Shown here: positions 31,665 through 43,343 of the stretch, in pieces
How the letters are laid out: every line of letters begins with the position of its first letter
Numbering within the stretch: position 1 is the stretch's first letter
Assembly (NCBI RefSeq): GCF_029502005.1
Contig: NZ_JAMQOT010000002.1
Coordinates: 124,001-188,000 of the forward strand
DNA: 64,000 nt
Source of the DNA: Natrinema salsiterrestre
GTDB lineage: Archaea > Halobacteriota > Halobacteria > Halobacteriales > Natrialbaceae
Reading direction: 5' to 3'
Notes under the pieces: model-generated
Databases searched by the model: none
Seen by the model: only the letters and a program-made list of their open reading frames with translations
Told to the model about the DNA's origin: nothing
Translations under genes and position numbers: made by a program

Positions 31665-31755
31665 CCGAACAGTCACACTGCCGAACCGAACGGCGGCCGT
31701 CGGATTCGAGAGGCGTACCACGATCGTTTTGATAGCTGGGCCGCTAACGGAGAGT

Positions 31756-32364
31756 ATGACCGAACGCGAGGGACTCGAGCGGCGGGGGCTGCTGGGCACG
31801 CTGGGCGCGGGGATCGCCACCGGTATCGCGGGCTGTCTCGGCGGTACCCAGCCCGAACGCGACGAGGACGACACTGACGACGAACCCCCGGCACAGGTGT
31901 ACGAACCCTCGCTCGAGGACGTCACTGAGGGCCCCTTCGAGATCCCCGACGGACATCGCTGTGCGGTCTGTGGCATGACTGCGAACGATTACTTCGGGAA
32001 GGGCCAGCTCGTCCACGAGAACGGGCTGGCAGCGGTCTTCGACTCGCCGGGGTGTCTGTTCGCGTACACGGTCTCGTCGACGCCCGATTCGCCGGTCGCC
32101 GGTGCCTGGATAACCGACTATGGAACGGGCGACCTCATCGACGCCACCGGTGCTCACTTCGTTCTCATCACCGACGAGGAGGCCGCCGAGGACCCCATGG
32201 GAATCGATCCGCGCCCGTACGCCGACCGCGAGGCTGCGGTCTCGTTTCTCGAGGAGTGGGCGGCCGAGGACCTCTCCCCGGAGGAGGACATCATCATCGG
32301 ACTCGACGAGGTCGACCTCGAGCTCGCCTCGATCTACCGGGGAACGCGCCTGCCGGACGAATAG
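31756..32364 (+). CDS. NosL family copper-binding lipoprotein
   Basis: A 202-residue exported lipoprotein. RR at residues 9-10 and the lipobox IAGC (Cys27) indicate Tat export. The NosL signature HRCAVCGMTANDYFGKGQLV (Cys69, Cys72, Met74) binds Cu(I). NosL normally delivers copper to nitrous oxide reductase, yet no nos genes are in the window; it could serve another extracellular copper protein, for example the blue copper proteins encoded at 1.4 and 34 kb. That link is an inference. The start ATG 31756 gives the intact Tat signal. Confidence 0.88.
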   Translation: MTEREGLERRGLLGTLGAGIATGIAGCLGGTQPERDEDDTDDEPPAQVYEPSLEDVTEGPFEIPDGHRCAVCGMTANDYFGKGQLVHENGLAAVFDSPGCLFAYTVSSTPDSPVAGAWITDYGTGDLIDATGAHFVLITDEEAAEDPMGIDPRPYADREAAVSFLEEWAAEDLSPEEDIIIGLDEVDLELASIYRGTRLPDE

Positions 32365-33386: not shown

Positions 33387-33488
33387 CGCAGTCGGTCCGA
33401 AATCGTTCGATCCGTTCGTGACGGGGGGCGGTAGTCGTTCGTCCCACTTTCATTACCGTGGGACTCAAACACGTGGGTGGTGGAACTA

Positions 33489-33788
33489 ATGTCCAACCGG
33501 GAGTTGACCGACTTCCTGATACTGCGATCGCTCGACGAACCGATCACTGAGGACGAACTCGAGGCCGCGGGCGAACAGTCCGGACGGGCGCTGGAAGAAC
33601 TCCGGGACGAGGGGACGGAGATCCGCTGGGTCGAATCAGAGGTGATGACGAACGAGGACGGACGGGTCACCGGCACGTTCTGCCACTACCAAGCCGAGGG
33701 TGAGGATGCGATCCGCGAACACGCCGATCGAGCCGGCCTCCCCGCGACGCGAATCGATCGGCGAGGGGAGCCCCTCGAGGGTGAATAA
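33489..33788 (+). CDS. DUF4242 family (SCO4226-like nickel-binding type) protein
   Basis: A 99-residue ferredoxin-like-fold protein. The pattern LDEPITEDELEAAGEQSGRALEELRDEGTEIRWVESEVMTNEDGRVTGTFCHYQAEGEDAIREHADRAGLPATRI matches DUF4242, whose Streptomyces member SCO4226 binds nickel. I place the start at ATG 33489 (MSNRELTDF); GTG codons at 33477 and 33480 are alternatives. The role is unknown. It is convergent with the cupredoxin gene, 55 bases away. Confidence 0.75.
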   Translation: MSNRELTDFLILRSLDEPITEDELEAAGEQSGRALEELRDEGTEIRWVESEVMTNEDGRVTGTFCHYQAEGEDAIREHADRAGLPATRIDRRGEPLEGE

Positions 33789-33842: not shown

Positions 33843-35231
33843 CTACCCTGTCTCGTTACCGCTCGTCTCGTTGCCGTCCGCCGCGATCGTCTCGTTGCCA
33901 CCGATTCCATCCGTCTCGTTGCCACTGACTCCGTCCGTCTCGTTGCCACCGATTCCATCCGTCTCGTTGCCACCGATTCCGTCCGTCTCGTTGCCACTGA
34001 CTCCGTCCGTCTCGTTGCCACTGACTCCGTCCGTCTCGTTGCCGTCCGTAGCGTCCGTTTCGACCGTCACGTCGCCCGCGTCGGTCGTCGACTCCCCGCT
34101 GACGGAGAGGTCGCCAACGGCGTCGAGTTGCGACTGATCCAGATAGACGCCCATTTCCTCTTTCGCGACGAATTTGACCGTCTGTGTCTCGCCCACGGCG
34201 TCGGTGAAGTCCGATCGGACGTACGTGTTCCACTCGTTGGTGTCGCCGTCGCTGGCGATCACGAAGTTGTGACCGGGGAGCGGTTCGTAGAACCTGTTTT
34301 CTCCCTCCGGATCGAGGCGACCGATCGCGTTCTCCCACTCGACGGTGTAGGATTCGCCCGCCTCGAGTTCGAGCGTCGGATTCGTCTCGTCGGCGATCGC
34401 GTCGGGGTGCTGACCGACCCACTGGCCCTCCTCGAGGCGCATCGAGTAGGTGGCGGCCGGTTCGCTCGGATCGGTGGTCGGCACCGTGACGGTGACTTCC
34501 TGATCGCCGCCGTCGATCGTTACCGTGTCCGTAACCCGTTCGTGGCCGTACGTCCAGACTTCGAGTTCGTACTCGCCGTCCTCGAGCATGTCGAAGCGGG
34601 CGACCGCCATCTCGTCTTCCGCCTGCTCCGTCGGGTCCGGTCGAGCGGCGATGTTCGAGAACGAGTGCGTCCCATCGATGAACACTTCCGCCCCGAGGGG
34701 CTCGCCCGCTTCGTTCTCGACGTGGACCACCAGTTCGTGGACGTCGCCGGGCTGAATCAGTTCGACCGGGCCGCGCATCTGGGCCGGATGAGGCGCACAG
34801 AAGTACTCCTCCATCTCCTCGCTCGCGGTGAACTCGAGCGACGTCGTCTCGCCCTGTTCGGTCAGCGACTCGGTGGCCTCGAGTACCTCGGCGTCGTCGT
34901 CGAGCGCGCTGCCGGCGGTGATGTTGAAGTTGTGCGTCGAGCCGTCGCCGTTCGTCCAGACGACCTCGTGTCGTTCGCCCTCGATCAGCCGGAGCGTCGG
35001 GTTGGACTTGGCGTCGATCTCGTGGGGTGCGACGCCGACCCAGCCGCCGACGATGCCGAGTATCTGGAACGTCCGCCCCTCGCCGTCGTTCTGCGTCGCC
35101 GGGAGCAGGAAGTCGATCTCGTCGCGGTACGCGCTCGCCGACCCGACGGCAGCCGTTCCGGCGAGCGCCGCCGTCCCTTGCAATAGCCTGCGGCGCGAGA
35201 CGTCGTCGCGTGAACGTTGTTCGTTCGTCAT
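33843..35231 (-). CDS. Tat-exported double-cupredoxin protein with a C-terminal N-glycosylation sequon array
   Basis: A 462-residue exported protein. The Tat signal is SRRRLLQGTAALAG (residues 12-25). Cupredoxin 1 (about 40-160) has full type 1 copper ligands: His100, Cys145, His148 and Met152 in FCAPHPAQM. A beta-sandwich spacer (160-255) follows. Domain 2 (about 260-375) repeats the WVG..P...A...NPTL and HNF motifs of domain 1 but lacks the Cys-His-Met loop, so it is a degenerate copy. The tail (about 395-462) contains nine NET sequons in 8-residue repeats. It starts 30 bases after the PQQ dehydrogenase stop and is probably its electron acceptor. Confidence 0.88.
   Translation of the reverse strand: MTNEQRSRDDVSRRRLLQGTAALAGTAAVGSASAYRDEIDFLLPATQNDGEGRTFQILGIVGGWVGVAPHEIDAKSNPTLRLIEGERHEVVWTNGDGSTHNFNITAGSALDDDAEVLEATESLTEQGETTSLEFTASEEMEEYFCAPHPAQMRGPVELIQPGDVHELVVHVENEAGEPLGAEVFIDGTHSFSNIAARPDPTEQAEDEMAVARFDMLEDGEYELEVWTYGHERVTDTVTIDGGDQEVTVTVPTTDPSEPAATYSMRLEEGQWVGQHPDAIADETNPTLELEAGESYTVEWENAIGRLDPEGENRFYEPLPGHNFVIASDGDTNEWNTYVRSDFTDAVGETQTVKFVAKEEMGVYLDQSQLDAVGDLSVSGESTTDAGDVTVETDATDGNETDGVSGNETDGVSGNETDGIGGNETDGIGGNETDGVSGNETDGIGGNETIAADGNETSGNETG
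33846..34047 (-). repeat. Tandem 24-base coding repeats encoding NET sequons
   Basis: Within the cupredoxin gene, 24-base units encode GNETDGVS or GNETDGIG. Nine NET (N-x-T) sites occur, the central six in perfect 8-residue register. The unit consensus on the plus strand reads GTCTCGTTGCCA plus a variable half. Confidence 0.9.
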
Positions 35232-35261: not shown

Positions 35262-36971
35262 TCAGTTCCCCATCGAGAACACGGCGAGGGTGTCGCCGCG
35301 CGGTCCCTGTCGGAGCCAGCCGCTGCCGCCGACCTGAACGGCGACGTACTGCTTCTCCTCGCCGGGGTCGTACCAGCTCATCGGCGAGGCGCTGATCGGC
35401 ACGTCGAACCCGTGCTCCCAGAGGCGCTCGCCGCTCTCGCCGTCGTAGGCGACGAGGTTGCCGTTCTGGGTGCCGTTGAACACGAGTCCCGTCGCGGTCG
35501 ACAGCGATCCGCCCCACATGTAAAGGTCGTCCTCGCTCTCGATCCAGTCGCGCCAGACGCGTTCGCCCGTCGCCGGATCGACCGCTGCGAAGGCGGTGAT
35601 CGCGCCGTTCCACTCGTCCGGGAACTCGCTGGCCGGATCGTCCAGCCCGCCGCCCCAGTAGGGATTCCCCTGATCGAACTCCTCGTAGCGCCAGTAGAGG
35701 TCCTGCGGGTAGTTCTGGTGGACGACGTACACGAGCCCCGTCGCCGGGTTGTACGACGGCGGCTGCCAGTCGTTGCCCCCCGGCGCGCCGGGAACGAACG
35801 GCGTCCGTTCGTCCTGGCTAATGTGGGGAATCATCTCCCACATATTGATGTGCTGGCAGATCTCCTGACTGCGCTCGTGGAGCTGACCCGACTCGGCGTC
35901 CATCATGTAGACCCATCCGGTCTTGTCGGAGCCGGCGACGATGTCCATCGAGTCGCCCTCGACCTCCACGTCGCGAACTAGCACGCGCGGCGCGACCGAG
36001 TCGTAGTCCCAGACGTCGTGAGGACTGCTCTGGAAGCCCCACTGGAACTCCCCGCTCTCGAGGTCCAGCGAGATCGTGCCGCACGTGGGGAAGTTCGGTC
36101 CCGGACGGACCGTGCCGTCGAAGTCCGGCCCGGGATTCGCGACCGCCGTGTAGAGGACCTCCCGGTCCTCGTCGATCGTCGGCGTCATCCAGGTCGTGCC
36201 GCAGCCGTGCTCCCGGCTCGCGCCGACCCACTCGTCCTCCGGCAGCGTATCGGTCTGCCACTGTATCTCGCCGCTCTCGGCGTCGAGGGCGGCGACGAAC
36301 CCGAGCACGCCGTACTCACCGCCGGCGCTGCCCGTGTACAGCGTCCCGTCGCGGATCACCGGTGCCCACGTCGCGGAGTACCCTTCCGTGTGATCTGCGG
36401 TGCTCGTGTGCCAGACTTCCTCACCGGTGTAGCGGTCCAGCGCGACGACCCCCGAATCGAGCGTCGTCATGTACACCGTGTCGCCGAGAACGGCCGCCCC
36501 GCGGTTGTTGTCGTCACAACAGAGTTCGACGCCGATCGGGGGCGCGTACGTGTAACTCCAGAGGACCTCCCCCTCGCGGGGATCGATCGCCTTCATGTGG
36601 TTCGGCCCGTTCGTCTGGTACATGACCGGCGGGTCGCCCGGAACGACGATGGGCGTCCCCTCCATGCTCGAGCCCGTCCCGACCGACAGCTCGTACTCGA
36701 GCTCGAGGTCACCGACGTTCTCGGGCGTGATGGTGTCGGCGGTCGTCGCGCGGTGTTGTTCGTAGTTCCCGCCGTACATGAGCCACGACTCGGGATCGTC
36801 GCCCGTGTCGCTCAGCATCTCCTGATCGACGTCGACCTCCGGAATGCGGTCGGTGTCGTGTTGTTGGGTAACCGATTCCTCTGGCCCCCCAACCAGCGTG
36901 TAGCCGTCGTCGATCTCTCTCAGTTCGATGTCGCGTGCGGCCTGAACGGCCCTGTCGTTGCGTAGTGCCAT
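35262..36971 (-). CDS. PQQ-dependent alcohol dehydrogenase (methanol/ethanol dehydrogenase family) with lanthanide-type Asp
   Basis: A 569-residue beta-propeller quinoprotein. Key residues: vicinal cysteines 151-152 in ELCCDDNNRG (the disulfide that abuts PQQ), Glu219 in GGEYGVLGF and Asn279 in ANPGPDFDG as metal ligands, Trp261 in GTTWM stacking on PQQ, catalytic Asp322 and the extra Asp324 in HDVWDYD, and Lys350 in SDKTGWVYM. Asp two residues after the catalytic Asp is the mark of lanthanide enzymes (XoxF, PedH); calcium enzymes have Ala or Ser. No signal peptide is visible. A strong ribosome binding site spans the upstream gene's stop codon, so translation is coupled to it. Alcohol substrate unknown; methanol possible. 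Confidence 0.9.
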   Translation of the reverse strand: MALRNDRAVQAARDIELREIDDGYTLVGGPEESVTQQHDTDRIPEVDVDQEMLSDTGDDPESWLMYGGNYEQHRATTADTITPENVGDLELEYELSVGTGSSMEGTPIVVPGDPPVMYQTNGPNHMKAIDPREGEVLWSYTYAPPIGVELCCDDNNRGAAVLGDTVYMTTLDSGVVALDRYTGEEVWHTSTADHTEGYSATWAPVIRDGTLYTGSAGGEYGVLGFVAALDAESGEIQWQTDTLPEDEWVGASREHGCGTTWMTPTIDEDREVLYTAVANPGPDFDGTVRPGPNFPTCGTISLDLESGEFQWGFQSSPHDVWDYDSVAPRVLVRDVEVEGDSMDIVAGSDKTGWVYMMDAESGQLHERSQEICQHINMWEMIPHISQDERTPFVPGAPGGNDWQPPSYNPATGLVYVVHQNYPQDLYWRYEEFDQGNPYWGGGLDDPASEFPDEWNGAITAFAAVDPATGERVWRDWIESEDDLYMWGGSLSTATGLVFNGTQNGNLVAYDGESGERLWEHGFDVPISASPMSWYDPGEEKQYVAVQVGGSGWLRQGPRGDTLAVFSMGN

Positions 36972-36987
36972 GGAGGATCACCTCAGT
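36972..36987 (-). promoter_or_regulatory. Extended Shine-Dalgarno of the PQQ dehydrogenase gene
   Basis: On the minus strand GAGGTGATCC, almost fully complementary to the 3' end of 16S rRNA, overlaps the TGA stop of the upstream gene and ends 5 bases before ATG 36971. Confidence 0.7.
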
Positions 36988-37877
36988 TCGCTCGGCGCGC
37001 GCATGTCGTCGGTGATGTAGAAGACGTCGTGCAGCAGGTCTTCCTGACTGACGATCTGAACGGCCGCGCCAGCGGTGAACGCGGCGGTCAACTGTTCGTC
37101 CGTGAACCGGCCGTCCCCGGCGAGATCGCACGCGGCTGTCGCCGAGACGAACAGTCCGCCCAGCATCGCCTTCACGTAGCCGACCGCGTCATCGAGGATC
37201 TCGTCGGTAATCATCACCTCGTTCTGCCAGAGGTGTCTGTCGAGTCCGCGGATCCACAGCAGCGTCCCGCCCATCGCGCGCTGATGGAGCGGCGGGACGG
37301 TTTCGGTCTCGAACTCGACCCCCTCTGGAATCTGGTTCGACGGCACCCAACGGGCGAGTCGCTCGTCGTTGTTCGCGACCGCCGTCAGCAGCGCCGTCTT
37401 CTCCGCTTCGTCGAACCCGACGTCGTCGAGCGCCGACGACAGGGGGTCCGCGAGGATCAGTTCGCGCGTCGTGGTCTCGATCTGGTCCGCCGCGAACCGC
37501 GGCAGGTTCTCGTCGAGACTCTCGAAGAACCCGACCTCGAGCAGGTGGTCGTAGAGACGCCACCCCGGTTCGGCAACCGTCGTATACGGCCCGTCCGGTC
37601 CGTCGGGCACGCCGACATCGCGAACGGCCGGCAAGCGACCGATTTCGTTCGCGATGGTCTCTCGTTCCCGCTCGAGTACGTCGCGATCGAGTCGGCCGGC
37701 CAGATCGGTCCGAATCGCCTCGCCCCGCGAGCCGAACGCCGAATCGCCCCGCGGTTGGACCTGCCCCGCGAGCAGGTCCCACGTTACGTCCCCGCTTTCG
37801 GGCGCATCGACGCCGAGCGTCGTCGCCAGATCACGGTGGTCCGCGCTCGTCGCGTCTGGTATGGTGTATTCTACCAT
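36978..37877 (-). CDS. Unknown 299-residue protein encoded first in the PQQ dehydrogenase operon
   Basis: I do not recognise a family. The protein is acidic, cytosolic by appearance, and mostly helical: an N-terminal third with GDVTWDLLAGQVQPRGDSAFGSRGEAIRTDL, a middle with EPGWRLYDHLLEVGFFESLDENLPRF, and a C-terminal part VPPLHQRAMGGTLLWIRGLDRHLWQNEVMITDEILDDAVGYVKAMLGGLFVSATAACDLAG. Conserved-looking His residues (HQR, DRHLW) could bind a cofactor. Its stop overlaps the ribosome binding site of the PQQ dehydrogenase, and the next gene is the cupredoxin, so a role in that enzyme's maturation, PQQ handling or electron transfer is inferred from position only. Confidence 0.75.
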   Translation of the reverse strand: MVEYTIPDATSADHRDLATTLGVDAPESGDVTWDLLAGQVQPRGDSAFGSRGEAIRTDLAGRLDRDVLERERETIANEIGRLPAVRDVGVPDGPDGPYTTVAEPGWRLYDHLLEVGFFESLDENLPRFAADQIETTTRELILADPLSSALDDVGFDEAEKTALLTAVANNDERLARWVPSNQIPEGVEFETETVPPLHQRAMGGTLLWIRGLDRHLWQNEVMITDEILDDAVGYVKAMLGGLFVSATAACDLAGDGRFTDEQLTAAFTAGAAVQIVSQEDLLHDVFYITDDMRAPSELR

Positions 37878-38094: not shown

Positions 38095-40023
38095 TCAGTC
38101 GTCGCCCGATGCAGTCACACCACCCTCACTGCTGACGCCGGTTCCGGGTCCGACCTCGATCCCGAGCTCGTCGAGTTTCTCGTCGGGAACGACGCCGTCG
38201 ACCCAGCCGCGGTAGTCGTAGTACTCCTCTTTCATCTCCGCGAGTTCGCAGTACTCGCCCTCGCTTGCACCCTGGCCGCGGATGCCGTCCTCGAGGAAGC
38301 GCTCTGGCAGCGAGTCGTCGCTGCCGTCGAAGCCGACGAGGTTGTTGTAGTAGCGCTCGAGGTTGTAGACGCGTTCGCCGGCCTCGAGGAGTTCGTCCTC
38401 GGAGACGTCCCGGCCGGTCATCCCGTTGTACTGGGTGACGTACTCCTCGATGCCCTCCGCGAAGGCGTTGAACTTGCAGATGTCGAAGGAGTCGCTGATG
38501 GCGTGGAGGTCCTGGAACTGGGCGGTGAGCTCGCCCTTGCCCTCCCACTCGTACGGGTCGACCTTCTCCGGAATGCCGAGGATCTCCGCGGCGGGGGTGT
38601 ATCCTCGCAGGTGGCAGGCCCCGCGGTTCGAGGTCGCGTAACCGATGCCCATGCCCTTCATACAGCGGGGATCGTAGGCAGCGATGGTCTCGCCTTTGAC
38701 GTCCAGTCGGGAGTCGTGCGCGTCGAACGCCTCGCCGATCCGTTCTGCACCCTCACCCAGCGTGTGCGCGAGGTCGTCCTCGCGGTGGGCGATCCGCTCG
38801 ATCATGTCGATCATCTGCTCGGGGTCGCCCCAGTCGATGTCCTCGTCGATGTATCCCTTCTCGCTCATCTCCATGGCCATCGCGAGGATGTTGCCCGTAT
38901 CGATGGTGTCCATCCCGAAGTCGTTACACCGGTCGATCATGACGGCGATCTTGTCTCGGTCGTCGTTCGCCGAGTTGGTCCCGAGCGCCCACGCGGACTC
39001 GTACTCGTAGGACTCCATCCGGACGTTCATCTCCTCGCCCTTGTGCATCACGTCGACCTCGACCTCCTTCTTGCAGGCGACGGGACAGGAGTGACAGGTC
39101 GGCTCGTCCACGAGGATGTTCTCGCGGACGTTCTCGCCGCTGATGCGCTCCGCGTCGAGGTCGTGCGGTCGGTCCGCTTCGCCCTCGTTGTAAGAATCGC
39201 CGGAGGTGTAGACGCCGTTCTTCGTCGGATGCCCGTCCATCTCCTCGGTGATGTTCATGAGGACGTTCGTCCCGTACATCGAGAGGCCGCCCTCGTTGGG
39301 CGCGGTGACCTCCGACTCCTGAATGGCCTGCATCGCCTGCATGTGCCCCTCCTTGAACGTCTCCTGATCCGCCGGTTTGGGCATTCTCGTGCCCGATTTG
39401 ACGACGACCGCTTTGAGCTTCTTCGACCCGGCGACACAGCCCGTGCCGCCGCGTCCCGAAGCGCGGTCGTCCTCGTTCATGATGTTGCCGTATCGGACCA
39501 GGTTCTCGCCCGCGGTCCCGATCCCCATGATGCTCAGGTTCTTGCCGTATGAGCCCTCTACCTCCTCTTCGATCGCATCGCGGGTCTCGTGGAACCCCTT
39601 CCCCCAGAGGTGGGAGGCGTCTCGCAGTTCCACTTCGCCGTCCTCGACGTAGGCGTAGACCGGCTCGTCGGCCTGCCCTTCGAACAACAATCCGTCGAAG
39701 CCGGCCCACTTGAGCCGGGCACCGGACCAGCCGCCGTGGTGGCTGTCGGTGACCGTGCCGGTCAGCGGCGACTTCGTACAGATGGCGATCCGACCGCTCA
39801 TCGTCACCTGCGTCCCCGACAACGGCCCGTTCATGAAGGCGAGCAGGTTGTCCGGCCCGAGCGGATCGACGTCCGGTCCCTGATCGAAGACGTACTTCAC
39901 CCCGAGTCCCCGTGCCCCGATATACTTCTTCGCGTCCTCGTCCGGGATCGACTCGTAGGCGACGTCCCCGTCCGAGAGATCGATTCGTGCGACGCGGTCC
40001 TGGAAACCGCCGAGTTCAGTCAT
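38095..40023 (-). CDS. Aldehyde:ferredoxin oxidoreductase (tungsten AOR family)
   Basis: A 642-residue cytosolic enzyme oxidising aldehydes to acids with ferredoxin. The N-terminal pterin-binding domain has GARGLGVKYVFDQGPDVDPLGPDN, TMSGRIAICTKSPLTGTVTDSHHGG and GRGGTGCVAGSKKLKAVVV (about 189-208). The [4Fe-4S] ligands are Cys310, Cys313 and Cys317 in CHSCPVACKKE plus a late Cys in DSFDICKFNAF. Length is normal. Substrate cannot be read from sequence; formaldehyde or acetaldehyde from the neighbouring PQQ dehydrogenase would fit. A TTAACATAG element about 35 bases upstream of ATG 40023 is the likely TATA box. The 276-base gap upstream is AT-rich and otherwise empty. Confidence 0.92.
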   Translation of the reverse strand: MTELGGFQDRVARIDLSDGDVAYESIPDEDAKKYIGARGLGVKYVFDQGPDVDPLGPDNLLAFMNGPLSGTQVTMSGRIAICTKSPLTGTVTDSHHGGWSGARLKWAGFDGLLFEGQADEPVYAYVEDGEVELRDASHLWGKGFHETRDAIEEEVEGSYGKNLSIMGIGTAGENLVRYGNIMNEDDRASGRGGTGCVAGSKKLKAVVVKSGTRMPKPADQETFKEGHMQAMQAIQESEVTAPNEGGLSMYGTNVLMNITEEMDGHPTKNGVYTSGDSYNEGEADRPHDLDAERISGENVRENILVDEPTCHSCPVACKKEVEVDVMHKGEEMNVRMESYEYESAWALGTNSANDDRDKIAVMIDRCNDFGMDTIDTGNILAMAMEMSEKGYIDEDIDWGDPEQMIDMIERIAHREDDLAHTLGEGAERIGEAFDAHDSRLDVKGETIAAYDPRCMKGMGIGYATSNRGACHLRGYTPAAEILGIPEKVDPYEWEGKGELTAQFQDLHAISDSFDICKFNAFAEGIEEYVTQYNGMTGRDVSEDELLEAGERVYNLERYYNNLVGFDGSDDSLPERFLEDGIRGQGASEGEYCELAEMKEEYYDYRGWVDGVVPDEKLDELGIEVGPGTGVSSEGGVTASGDD

Positions 40024-40299: not shown

Positions 40300-41139
40300 G
40301 TGATCGACATCCCGGATACGCTCGCGCATCTCGAGCAACCCGAGTACACCGGTGAAAATCGGTGTTTGCCGTGTACGGCGGTTAACGTCGTCCTCGGGCT
40401 CGCCCTGGCGGTCGGCCTCGGCGTTGCGGTCTCCGTCCCCGTCGGCGCTCTCGCGTTCGCAGCGGCGCTCCTCCTCATCCGCGTTCGGGGCTATCTGGTC
40501 CCGGGGACGCCGACGCTCACCCGGCGCTATCTTCCCGAGCGCGCGCTCGAGTTATTCGACAAGTCGCCGCGGACGGGTCCGACGATCGAGACGGTGTCGC
40601 CCGACGAACTGGCAGCGGTTCTCACCGCCGCCGACGTCGCGACCGCTCGAGGCGAATCCATCCGGCTGAGCGCCGGCTTCGAGACCCGATGGGACGAACG
40701 ACTCTCGAGCGGAGGCGCAGCGGAACCGGGTTCCGATGAGTTGCAATCGATGCTCGGTGCGGAGGAGGTCGACCGCCTCGACGACGTAGCCTTCGTTCTC
40801 GACGGCATCAGGCGGATCCGGTGGGAATCGACGGCAGCGCTCGCGGCGGACACGGCCGCAGCGCCCGAGCTCCGTTCTCGAATCGACGGCTGGGACGACC
40901 TCGGGGTCGACGAGCGCCGCGACCTCCTGACGGGGCTGCGACTGCTCCGCGAGCGCTGCCCGGGCTGTGGGAGCGAGGTGAGGACGACGGCGGAGCGCCT
41001 CGAGCACTGCTGTCGACGGCCCCGGATCGGGATCAGCTCGGTCTGTGCGGGGTGTAACGAACCGGTTGTCGAACTCGTCGCGTCCGAATCGAGCGCCGAC
41101 CCGTGGCTCGAGCTGGCCGGTGTATCGGACGGCCCGTGA
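40300..41139 (+). CDS. Membrane protein with C-terminal zinc ribbon, unknown function
   Basis: A 279-residue protein from GTG 40300. Residues about 24-60 form two hydrophobic helices (AVNVVLGLALAVGLGVAVSV, GALAFAAALLLIRVRG). A basic-acidic cytosolic region follows, and the C-terminus holds two zinc knuckles: CPGCGSEVRTTAERLEHCC and VCAGCNEPVV. An N-terminal CLPC motif (about residues 22-25) precedes the first helix. It is convergent with formate dehydrogenase (20 bases) and divergent from AOR. No family name is known to me; the zinc ribbon suggests protein or nucleic-acid contact. Confidence 0.65.
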   Translation: MIDIPDTLAHLEQPEYTGENRCLPCTAVNVVLGLALAVGLGVAVSVPVGALAFAAALLLIRVRGYLVPGTPTLTRRYLPERALELFDKSPRTGPTIETVSPDELAAVLTAADVATARGESIRLSAGFETRWDERLSSGGAAEPGSDELQSMLGAEEVDRLDDVAFVLDGIRRIRWESTAALAADTAAAPELRSRIDGWDDLGVDERRDLLTGLRLLRERCPGCGSEVRTTAERLEHCCRRPRIGISSVCAGCNEPVVELVASESSADPWLELAGVSDGP

Positions 41140-41159: not shown

Positions 41160-43343
41160 TCAGTCGTCCTCGGCCGCGGGATCGGCGGTCTCGTCGAGCG
41201 GTTCGATATCGACGTCGATCTCCGCGGCGGCGGCCTTGTACTCGGGGATCTTCGCCCGGTCGTCGAGCACGTGGTTCGTGAGCTTGTTCGCCGACGCGGC
41301 GGCGAAGTGCGGCGTCGTCCAGACGACGCCCTCCTTGGTGTCCTCGGTGACCTGTGCCTCGAGCGTGATCTCCCCCCGCCGCGAGCGGAGCCGGATGTAC
41401 TCGCCGTCCTCGATGCCGTAGCGCTCGGCGTCGGCAGGGTGGACGTCGACGAAGTTCTCCGGCGTCTGCTTGTTGAGCGTCGGCGAGCGCGTGCTCATCG
41501 TGCCGGTGTTGTAGTGTTCCTCGAGCCGGGCCGTCGTGAGGATCAGCGGGTACTCGTCGTCCGGCGTCTCGGCGGGCGGCTGGTGATCGACGCCCTCGAT
41601 ATGGCCGCGGCCGCTCTCCGTGTCGAACTCGTGTTCGTAGAGGAACGGATCGCCCTCGTCGCCGGGTTCGTAGCAGGGCCAGTGCAGCCCCTCCTCGCCC
41701 AGCAGCTCGTAGGTCATTCCGTGGTAGCTCGGGCAGACCTGCCGGAGCTCCTCGAAGATCTCCTCCGGATCCTCGAAGTCGAATTTCCCGCCGGACTCCG
41801 TCCGGCTCTCCGAGGAGCTTCGCTCCTCGCTGCCGAACAGACGCGTCCCGATCTCGCTCAGGATCTCGCGGTCGTGCTTCGTGTTCTCGTGGACTTTCCC
41901 CACGCCGCGCATCCGCTGGACCCGGCGGTCGGTGTTGGTGACGGTGCCGCCGCGTTCGGCCCAGGTCGTCGCGGGCAGAATGACGTCCGCGTACTCCGCC
42001 GTCTCGGTCATGAAGATGTCCTGGACGACCGTGAACTCGAGTTCTTTCAGGCGTTCGGCGACGGCGTTGGCGTCGGGCTCGCTCATCACGGGGTTCTCGC
42101 CCATGACGTAGAGTCCCTTGATCGAGTCGCCGGCCTCGTAGGAGATCTCGACGTTCGTCAGGCCGGGCTCGTCCGGAATGTCGAAGCCCCAGACCTCCTC
42201 GACCGACTCGCGGGCCTCGTCGTCGTCGACCAGCTGATAGCCCGGCAGCACGTTCGGCATCGCACCGACGTCGCAGGTCCCCTGAACGTTGTTCTGGCCC
42301 CGCAGCGGGTTCACGCCCGTTCCGGGTCGCCCGAGGTTGCCCGTGATCAGCGCGAGGTTGATCTCGTTTTGGACGTTGTCGACGCCGCAGGCGTGCTGGC
42401 TCATTCCCATCCCGGTGAAGATGGCCGCGTTGTCCGCCGTCGCGTACTTCTCTGCCGCCAGTTCGATCTCCTCGAGCGGGACGCCACACTCCTCGGCCGC
42501 CGCTCGCTTGTCGAAGTCCTCGAGCGTCTCTTTCAGGTGATCGAACCCCTCCGTCCGTTCCTCGATGAACTCCTCGTCGATCCAGCCGTCCTCGGGGTTC
42601 TCCTCGTGGTGCTCGAGGATCGTTTTGAGGACGATATTGAGCAGCGGGATGTCCGTTCCCGGGTTCAACTGCAGGTGCTGGTGGCGGTCGGTGTCGTCGA
42701 TCTGGAACGACCGCGTCGTCTTGTTCGCGTGGGGATCGACCTGAATGACGGTCGCGCCCTCCAGCACCGCCTGCCGGAAGTACTGGCTGTTGGCGATGGG
42801 GTGTTGCTCGCCGGGATTCGCCCCCTGAATCCAGAACACGTCGGCCTCCTCGCGGAGGTCCCGCATGCTGTTCGTCATCGCCCCCGCGCCGAGGCTCGTG
42901 CGCAGCGCCCAGACCGTCGAGGCGTGGCACATCCGCGTGCAGTTGTCGACGTTGTTCGTGCCGTAGCGACGGGCCAGCTTCTGGAGGAGGTAGTTCTCCT
43001 CGTTCATCACCTTCGAGGAACCGAAAAAGCCCATCGCGTCCGGGCCGTACTCGTCGCGAATCCGCTCGAGTTCGCCCACGATGTACTCGTAGACCTCCTC
43101 CCAGGACGCCTCGCGGAACTCGCCGTCTTCCTCGATCAGCGGGTCGGTCAGTCGATCCTCGTGGTCGACCACCTCCGTCGCCGCCCCGCCTTTGATACAG
43201 ATCCGTCCCTCGTTGACCGGGGCGTCGCCCCAGGGCATGAACTGGACGTCGCCTGGTTCGTCACCGGGCTGTACTTTGATTCCGCACCCGACACCGCAGT
43301 ACGGACAGATCGTCTTGACCGGCTCTCGTTGATCGCTGGACAT
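41160..43343 (-). CDS. Formate dehydrogenase alpha subunit (molybdopterin oxidoreductase, Cys type)
   Basis: A 727-residue bis-MGD enzyme oxidising formate to CO2. The [4Fe-4S] cluster is bound by Cys13, Cys16, Cys20 and Cys49 with Lys51 relaying electrons. The metal-ligating Cys139 followed by His140 (NCTRMCHAST) aligns with selenocysteine 140-His141 of E. coli FdhF; that Cys-His pair separates it from assimilatory nitrate reductases, which lack the His. The MGD-binding domains include GANPGEQHPIAN, GMGMSQHACG and GNLGRPGTGVNPLRGQNNVQG. No beta subunit or FdhD is adjacent. mobA and yqeC lie nearby and suit its cofactor needs. Confidence 0.9.
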   Translation of the reverse strand: MSSDQREPVKTICPYCGVGCGIKVQPGDEPGDVQFMPWGDAPVNEGRICIKGGAATEVVDHEDRLTDPLIEEDGEFREASWEEVYEYIVGELERIRDEYGPDAMGFFGSSKVMNEENYLLQKLARRYGTNNVDNCTRMCHASTVWALRTSLGAGAMTNSMRDLREEADVFWIQGANPGEQHPIANSQYFRQAVLEGATVIQVDPHANKTTRSFQIDDTDRHQHLQLNPGTDIPLLNIVLKTILEHHEENPEDGWIDEEFIEERTEGFDHLKETLEDFDKRAAAEECGVPLEEIELAAEKYATADNAAIFTGMGMSQHACGVDNVQNEINLALITGNLGRPGTGVNPLRGQNNVQGTCDVGAMPNVLPGYQLVDDDEARESVEEVWGFDIPDEPGLTNVEISYEAGDSIKGLYVMGENPVMSEPDANAVAERLKELEFTVVQDIFMTETAEYADVILPATTWAERGGTVTNTDRRVQRMRGVGKVHENTKHDREILSEIGTRLFGSEERSSSESRTESGGKFDFEDPEEIFEELRQVCPSYHGMTYELLGEEGLHWPCYEPGDEGDPFLYEHEFDTESGRGHIEGVDHQPPAETPDDEYPLILTTARLEEHYNTGTMSTRSPTLNKQTPENFVDVHPADAERYGIEDGEYIRLRSRRGEITLEAQVTEDTKEGVVWTTPHFAAASANKLTNHVLDDRAKIPEYKAAAAEIDVDIEPLDETADPAAEDD

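Follow-up and report, generated by a model that had tools for sequence, protein, structure and literature searches.

A haloarchaeal PQQ alcohol dehydrogenase-like protein with an invariant second active-site aspartate and a linked partner protein of no known family

The window, a stretch of 64,000 nucleotides from Natrinema salsiterrestre, encodes a protein with the predicted fold of PQQ alcohol dehydrogenases, a complete PQQ and metal site and an invariant second aspartate, which belongs to a separate haloarchaeal clade. Its gene is almost universally accompanied by that of a 299-residue partner protein and adjoins a cupredoxin gene, and PqqC is absent from the Halobacteria genomes searched. 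The best explanation, to which we give about an even chance as a whole, is that the gene product acts as catalytic subunit in a quinoprotein alcohol dehydrogenase of haloarchaea, an exported, cupredoxin-linked complex that would scavenge PQQ and would probably use a lanthanide. It is somewhat unlikely that the protein represents the first archaeal lanthanide-dependent enzyme, of another build than the bacterial ones: signal-less, exported by Tat in folded form by a partner of new fold, loaded with PQQ beyond the host's own making and wired to a cupredoxin in place of cytochrome c. The features are collected in Table 1.

Table 1. Features of the dehydrogenase operon, in positions of the window
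Feature	Position	Strand	Remark
PQQ alcohol dehydrogenase-like protein	35262..36971	-	569 aa, ATG to stop, eight-bladed propeller family
Cys151-Cys152, vicinal disulfide stacking on PQQ in relatives	36516..36521	-	alignment
Glu219, metal ligand by homology	36315..36317	-	alignment
Trp261, PQQ-stacking Trp by homology	36189..36191	-	alignment
Asn279, metal ligand by homology	36135..36137	-	alignment
HDVWDYD, residues 318-324 (catalytic-type Asp322 and extra Asp324)	36000..36020	-	both Asp invariant in haloarchaea
Lys350, PQQ partner by homology	35922..35924	-	alignment
Partner protein of no known family, 299 aa, all-helical	36978..37877	-	stop codon 6 nt before dehydrogenase start
Tat-exported cupredoxin, 462 aa	33843..35231	-	PF00127 3.3e-13; 30 nt downstream of dehydrogenase
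Cupredoxin Tat signal SRRRLLQGTAALAGTAAVGSASA	35130..35198	-	motif and hydrophobicity rule
Copper-ligand loop CAPHPAQM, residues 145-152	34776..34799	-	C-x2-H-x3-M kept in 14/14 close orthologues
Cupredoxin C-terminal tail, residues 398-461, nine N-E-T sequons	33846..34040	-	possible N-glycosylated surface tail

The start of the dehydrogenase is secure, because the open frame (571 residues, with a stop two codons upstream of the start) is merely two codons longer, and in the alignment the N-terminus MALRNDrAVqAA is common to the close orthologues from the first residue onwards. The protein has no signal peptide. Plus-strand open frames across the gene, such as 36018-36965, were taken as GC-rich shadows. 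In the family search the dehydrogenase matches PF01011 (PQQ propeller) at 3e-51, and its top NCBIfam model is TIGR03075 (methanol/ethanol family), at 370.5 bits under a curated cut-off of 480.05; the NCBIfam “acido-empty-quinoprotein” group is matched at 283 bits, also under its cut-off. The best PDB sequence matches are the lanthanide enzymes PedH (6zcv/6zcw) and XoxF (4mae). The AlphaFold2 model (pLDDT 89.0, pTM 0.92) has the propeller fold of the PQQ alcohol dehydrogenase superfamily, with a TM of about 0.8 to many members, and Foldseek ranks PedH (E 3.2e-46) and then europium XoxF (E 3.2e-44) first among PDB structures, at a TM of about 0.81-0.82. The fold alone cannot tell the metal, because calcium enzymes rank closely behind these two. 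The initial annotation likened the protein to XoxF and PedH, and the tree places it with neither: in the IQ-TREE phylogeny, which has a midpoint root only, the haloarchaeal dehydrogenases come together on a single branch supported at 100/100, distinct from XoxF/MxaF (100/100), from PedH/ExaA and from the quinohaemoproteins.

All active-site residues that had been named from the translation (Cys151-Cys152, Glu219, Trp261, Asn279, Asp322, Asp324 and Lys350) are exact, and in the alignment the PQQ and metal residue set (Cys-Cys, Glu, Arg, Trp, Asn, Asp, Lys/Arg) is complete. An alignment of 27 diverse haloarchaeal homologues, with a mean column identity of 41%, has 47 invariant columns, and Asp322, Asp324, Asn279, Trp261 and Lys350 belong to these, so the second aspartate is not there by chance. 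An alignment of 76 rows includes PDB references, and both positions 322 and 324 are Asp in all 48 of its haloarchaeal rows, that of the window included; in the other 47 homologues, down to about 35% identity, they are thus unchanged. In a long-branch haloarchaeal clade (L161 and L163), WDRD replaces WDYD and a distant 299-residue homologue is divergently transcribed. The Cys-Cys pair is kept in the clade of the window and the nearest clades and lost in distant haloarchaeal groups, and Glu219 is lost in the most distant group. Members of the window's clade retain the full set of PQQ and metal residues, and the set agrees with XoxF at every column but that of Lys350, which is common to actinobacterial and quinohaemoprotein relatives and is Arg in XoxF, PedH, MxaF and ExaA.

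The extra Asp is present, as had been proposed, in XoxF (WDYD in 4mae, 6dam and 7o6z, WDFD in 6oc5) and in PedH (WDFD), and the calcium enzymes indeed differ, with WDYA in MxaF (4tqo) and WDFS in ExaA (1flg). The quinohaemoprotein alcohol dehydrogenases in the PDB have WDYT (1kb0/1yiq) or WDFT (1kv9). Among the methanol/ethanol-type PDB sequences compared, all D-x-D members are lanthanide enzymes and all calcium members have Ala, Ser or Thr two residues past the catalytic Asp, where the window dehydrogenase has Asp324. D-x-D also occurs in all actinobacterial, planctomycete and proteobacterial homologues aligned, most marine PQQ dehydrogenases carry it according to Voutsinos et al. (PMC11996626), and it is reported for the membrane glucose dehydrogenase (mGDH) of E. 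coli (PMC11996626). As D-x-D is the common state among relatives and is reported for mGDH, the extra Asp is no sure sign of lanthanide dependence. The lanthanide-type reading of the initial annotation thus stands as far as the complete site, the second Asp and the fold nearest to lanthanide enzymes are concerned; it gives way in that the extra Asp extends beyond XoxF and PedH and that the protein has a clade of its own. It is weakened further by the lack of PqqC in the host and the other Halobacteria, which would leave even PQQ to an outside source, and by the earlier record of archaeal DYD quinoproteins in marine Thaumarchaeota (PMC7300363). D-x-D in the haloarchaeal dehydrogenase is a strong hint, though no proof, of lanthanide use, which is likely for the enzyme of the window.

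The dehydrogenase gene is carried by 69 of 391 Halobacteria genomes. PqqC (TIGR02111) has no match at cut-off in any of the 391, the host included, and none in five haloarchaeal genomes run beside positive controls; strong PqqC matches were obtained on an S. fredii megaplasmid and in 5/5 of the actinobacterial genomes in which the nearest bacterial dehydrogenase homologues occur. The host gives sub-cut-off matches to PqqE and PqqB, which were attributed to other proteins of the radical-SAM and metallo-beta-lactamase kinds; in 14/14 control genomes, too, PqqE-profile matches appear under cut-off. Without PqqC in Halobacteria, PQQ would have to come from the surroundings, and many Gram-negative bacteria do use PQQ made by others (PMC12124388). 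Scavenging is assumed here, the supply itself being part of the assumption, and another synthesis route is conceivable.

The partner, labelled a hypothetical protein in GenBank, lies directly upstream of the dehydrogenase in 60/60 whole-genome loci, including copies at 35% identity. In a second collection, scanned with the dehydrogenase alignment as query, 62 of the 65 haloarchaeal loci have it upstream in the same orientation; no partner was found at L120, and at L161 and L163 it is on the divergent strand. The total of 122/125 haloarchaeal loci pools two sets with species in common, which are therefore not independent of each other. Extra dehydrogenase copies without an adjacent partner are a second copy at L104 and a partial one at L119. 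Partner and dehydrogenase occur in the identical 69 of 391 Halobacteria genomes, with one further genome that has a 54-residue fragment of the partner alone. This fragment (G193:C1:1281453-1281614) is in a dehydrogenase-less genus-mate and is likely a gene relic of operon loss. A phylum-wide draw of 393 genomes gave seven partner matches, all from Halobacteria among the known carriers; there was no match among 198 genomes of the actinobacterial class, and none of 18 bacterial loci with homologous dehydrogenases has the partner. The near-constant linkage and the shared genome distribution are therefore strong evidence that partner and dehydrogenase form a functional unit.

The window's partner has no match in Pfam, NCBIfam or PDB sequences. 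Its AlphaFold2 model (pLDDT 91.9, pTM 0.91) is all helical and finds no fold match in the PDB (best E 0.34, probability 0.11). Going by this predicted model, the partner is structurally new, and it is the least explained element of the system. The conserved residues sit in the body of the protein, outside the signal. Many relatives' partners start with a Tat-like signal, for example DEDRREFLKALGVIGGGAVAGA, in which an RR-x-FLK-like motif precedes a hydrophobic stretch, and PF10518 (TAT_signal) matches 16 of 53 partner family members. In the window's partner the Tat motif is degenerate or lost, and in its clade a Tat signal is found only on the cupredoxin, the gene of which, directly downstream of the dehydrogenase, encodes one in 14/14 close-orthologue loci. 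These Tat calls were made by a simple rule on motif and hydrophobicity rather than by a trained predictor, and by the same rule no Tat signal of its own was recognised on the dehydrogenase at any locus examined. At most loci of the sister clade (58-66% identity), neither the partner nor the next gene shows a Tat signal. Given this and the lost motif of the window's partner, the sister-clade dehydrogenases, and to a degree that of the window, may possibly act in the cytoplasm. The distant signal-less dehydrogenases L042, L043, L055 and L172 end in PGF-CTERM-like surface anchors, and such tails would be sensible only with export by a partner.

The cupredoxin adjoins the dehydrogenase in 14/14 close-orthologue loci. 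A complete set of type-1 copper ligands (His100, Cys145, His148, Met152) occurs once in it; another cupredoxin-like domain lacks the Cys. In one distant haloarchaeal group (L050, L051, L053, L054), a cupredoxin domain with C-x2-H-x3-M is fused to the N-terminus of the dehydrogenase. The adjacent Tat cupredoxin and the fused domains point to a cupredoxin that replaces cytochrome c as acceptor, so that the cupredoxin is the likely electron acceptor of the dehydrogenase. The tail of the cupredoxin contains the eight-residue repeat GNETDGVS, which gives its nine N-E-T sequons, and orthologue tails hold 0 to 10 sequons; the Pfam match Gp5_trimer_C was rejected because it covers this NETDG repeat tail.

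Several other genes surround the operon. A NosL-type protein (copper chaperone family) is encoded near the cupredoxin gene (31729-32364, plus strand). An SCO4226-like small protein (33477-33788, plus strand) has homologues near several other copies of the dehydrogenase locus (L066, L090, L091 and L093). A 279-residue protein without Pfam match (40300-41139, plus strand) is also found near many dehydrogenase loci. Genes for an aldehyde ferredoxin oxidoreductase and a formate dehydrogenase alpha subunit (38095-40023 and 41160-43343, minus strand) lie upstream of the operon; a methanol-to-CO2 pathway through these two enzymes was considered and dropped, because the neighbourhood is kept in few loci only, which makes a tie to alcohol oxidation doubtful.

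The working model may be put as follows. The enzyme would fold in the cytoplasm together with the 299-residue partner and leave by Tat on the signal of a partner, which would be the 299-residue protein itself in many relatives and only the cupredoxin in the window's clade. PQQ, taken up from the surroundings, would sit with the Cys-Cys disulfide on one side and Trp261 on the other. It would bind a trivalent lanthanide coordinated by Glu219, Asn279, Asp322 and Asp324, with Asp322 also acting as base. Outside the cell, the two electrons of each alcohol would be handed one by one to the cupredoxin's type-1 copper and from there to the respiratory chain. Counting against this model are the presence of D-x-D in proteins not known to use lanthanides and, as reported, in mGDH (PMC11996626), the lost Tat motif of the window's partner together with the mostly signal-less sister clade, the assumed PQQ supply where PqqC is absent, and the TIGR03075 score below cut-off.

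Two alternatives concern the metal and the cofactor. The protein could be a PQQ dehydrogenase of this build that works with Ca2+ or Mg2+ in vivo, its second Asp being inherited and lanthanide-tolerant rather than lanthanide-requiring. The mGDH of E. coli works with Mg2+ and brines are rich in both Ca2+ and Mg2+, which count for this alternative, as do the usual occurrence of D-x-D among aligned relatives and its reported presence in mGDH (PMC11996626). It is nevertheless unlikely: the D-x-D members among the methanol/ethanol-type PDB sequences compared are all lanthanide enzymes, with Ala, Ser or Thr in the calcium ones, and the haloarchaeal Asp is invariant. An improbable alternative is that the protein does not work as a PQQ enzyme at all, but takes up a different quinone, or no quinone, and has a structural or binding role; the absence of PqqC from 391 Halobacteria, the sub-cut-off “acido-empty-quinoprotein” match and the loss of Cys-Cys and Glu219 in distant haloarchaeal groups would agree with it. 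Against it, the window's clade retains the whole XoxF-like residue set save for Lys350, and use of PQQ without its synthesis is frequent in bacteria (PMC12124388).

The other two concern location and the role of the partner. A dehydrogenase that stays inside, with the cupredoxin alone exported and a regulatory linkage, is unlikely. The lack of a signal on the dehydrogenase and the partner of the window, the mostly signal-less nearest sister clade and the upstream tungsten-type aldehyde oxidoreductase and formate dehydrogenase alpha genes favour this arrangement, but the cupredoxin fusions and PGF-CTERM-like tails of signal-less relatives indicate the outside, and the two upstream genes are not generally conserved with the operon. 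That the 299-residue protein is a chaperone or cofactor-loading protein, rather than a Tat-bearing subunit, is less likely than not but a serious candidate: the window's clade strictly keeps a signal-less partner and the conserved residues are in its body, whereas in many relatives the partner starts with a Tat-like signal, as a co-exported subunit should.

The known biology of lanthanides is bacterial, and an archaeal case open to biochemistry, if true, would extend it to another domain of life and to brines. The haloarchaeal dehydrogenase is a good place to seek the first rare-earth enzyme of archaea, and its carriers include several named species in culture, from Natrinema, Natrialba, Haloterrigena and Natronococcus. 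The system raises two questions, the source of PQQ in haloarchaea and the role of the strictly linked 299-residue partner. A search confined to a library of open-access papers brought up none that deals with haloarchaeal quinoproteins or lanthanides.

Among known systems, PedH/ExaF (6zcv, 6zcw) is the top sequence and fold match and shares the fold, Cys-Cys, Glu, Asn and Asp-x-Asp, but it has 28% identity to the window dehydrogenase, belongs to another clade and has Arg at the position of Lys350, and the 299-residue partner is in none of the bacterial loci examined. XoxF (4mae, 6dam, 6oc5, 7o6z) shares the WDYD or WDFD motif and the PQQ and metal residues, whereas the window dehydrogenase is outside the XoxF/MxaF clade, has no signal peptide and has a cupredoxin neighbour. 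The actinobacterial PQQ dehydrogenases of Amycolatopsis, Pseudonocardia and Prauserella are among the nearest bacterial sequences (34-35% identity) and have WDYD, Cys-Cys and Lys at position 350; unlike the haloarchaeal ones, their loci are without the 299-residue partner and their genomes have PqqC. Gluconate 2-dehydrogenase-type small subunits are helical and Tat-bearing and are encoded beside a signal-less catalytic flavoprotein. This arrangement is similar to that of the 299-residue partner, which differs in having no family match; there the catalytic neighbour is a flavoprotein. The quinoproteins of heterotrophic marine Thaumarchaeota, compared by description, are also archaeal, some have DYD, and blue copper proteins have been proposed as their acceptors (PMC7300363). 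They are reported to differ in that Cys-Cys is absent, signal peptides occur in 15 of 21 families and a PQQ synthase is present (PMC7300363).
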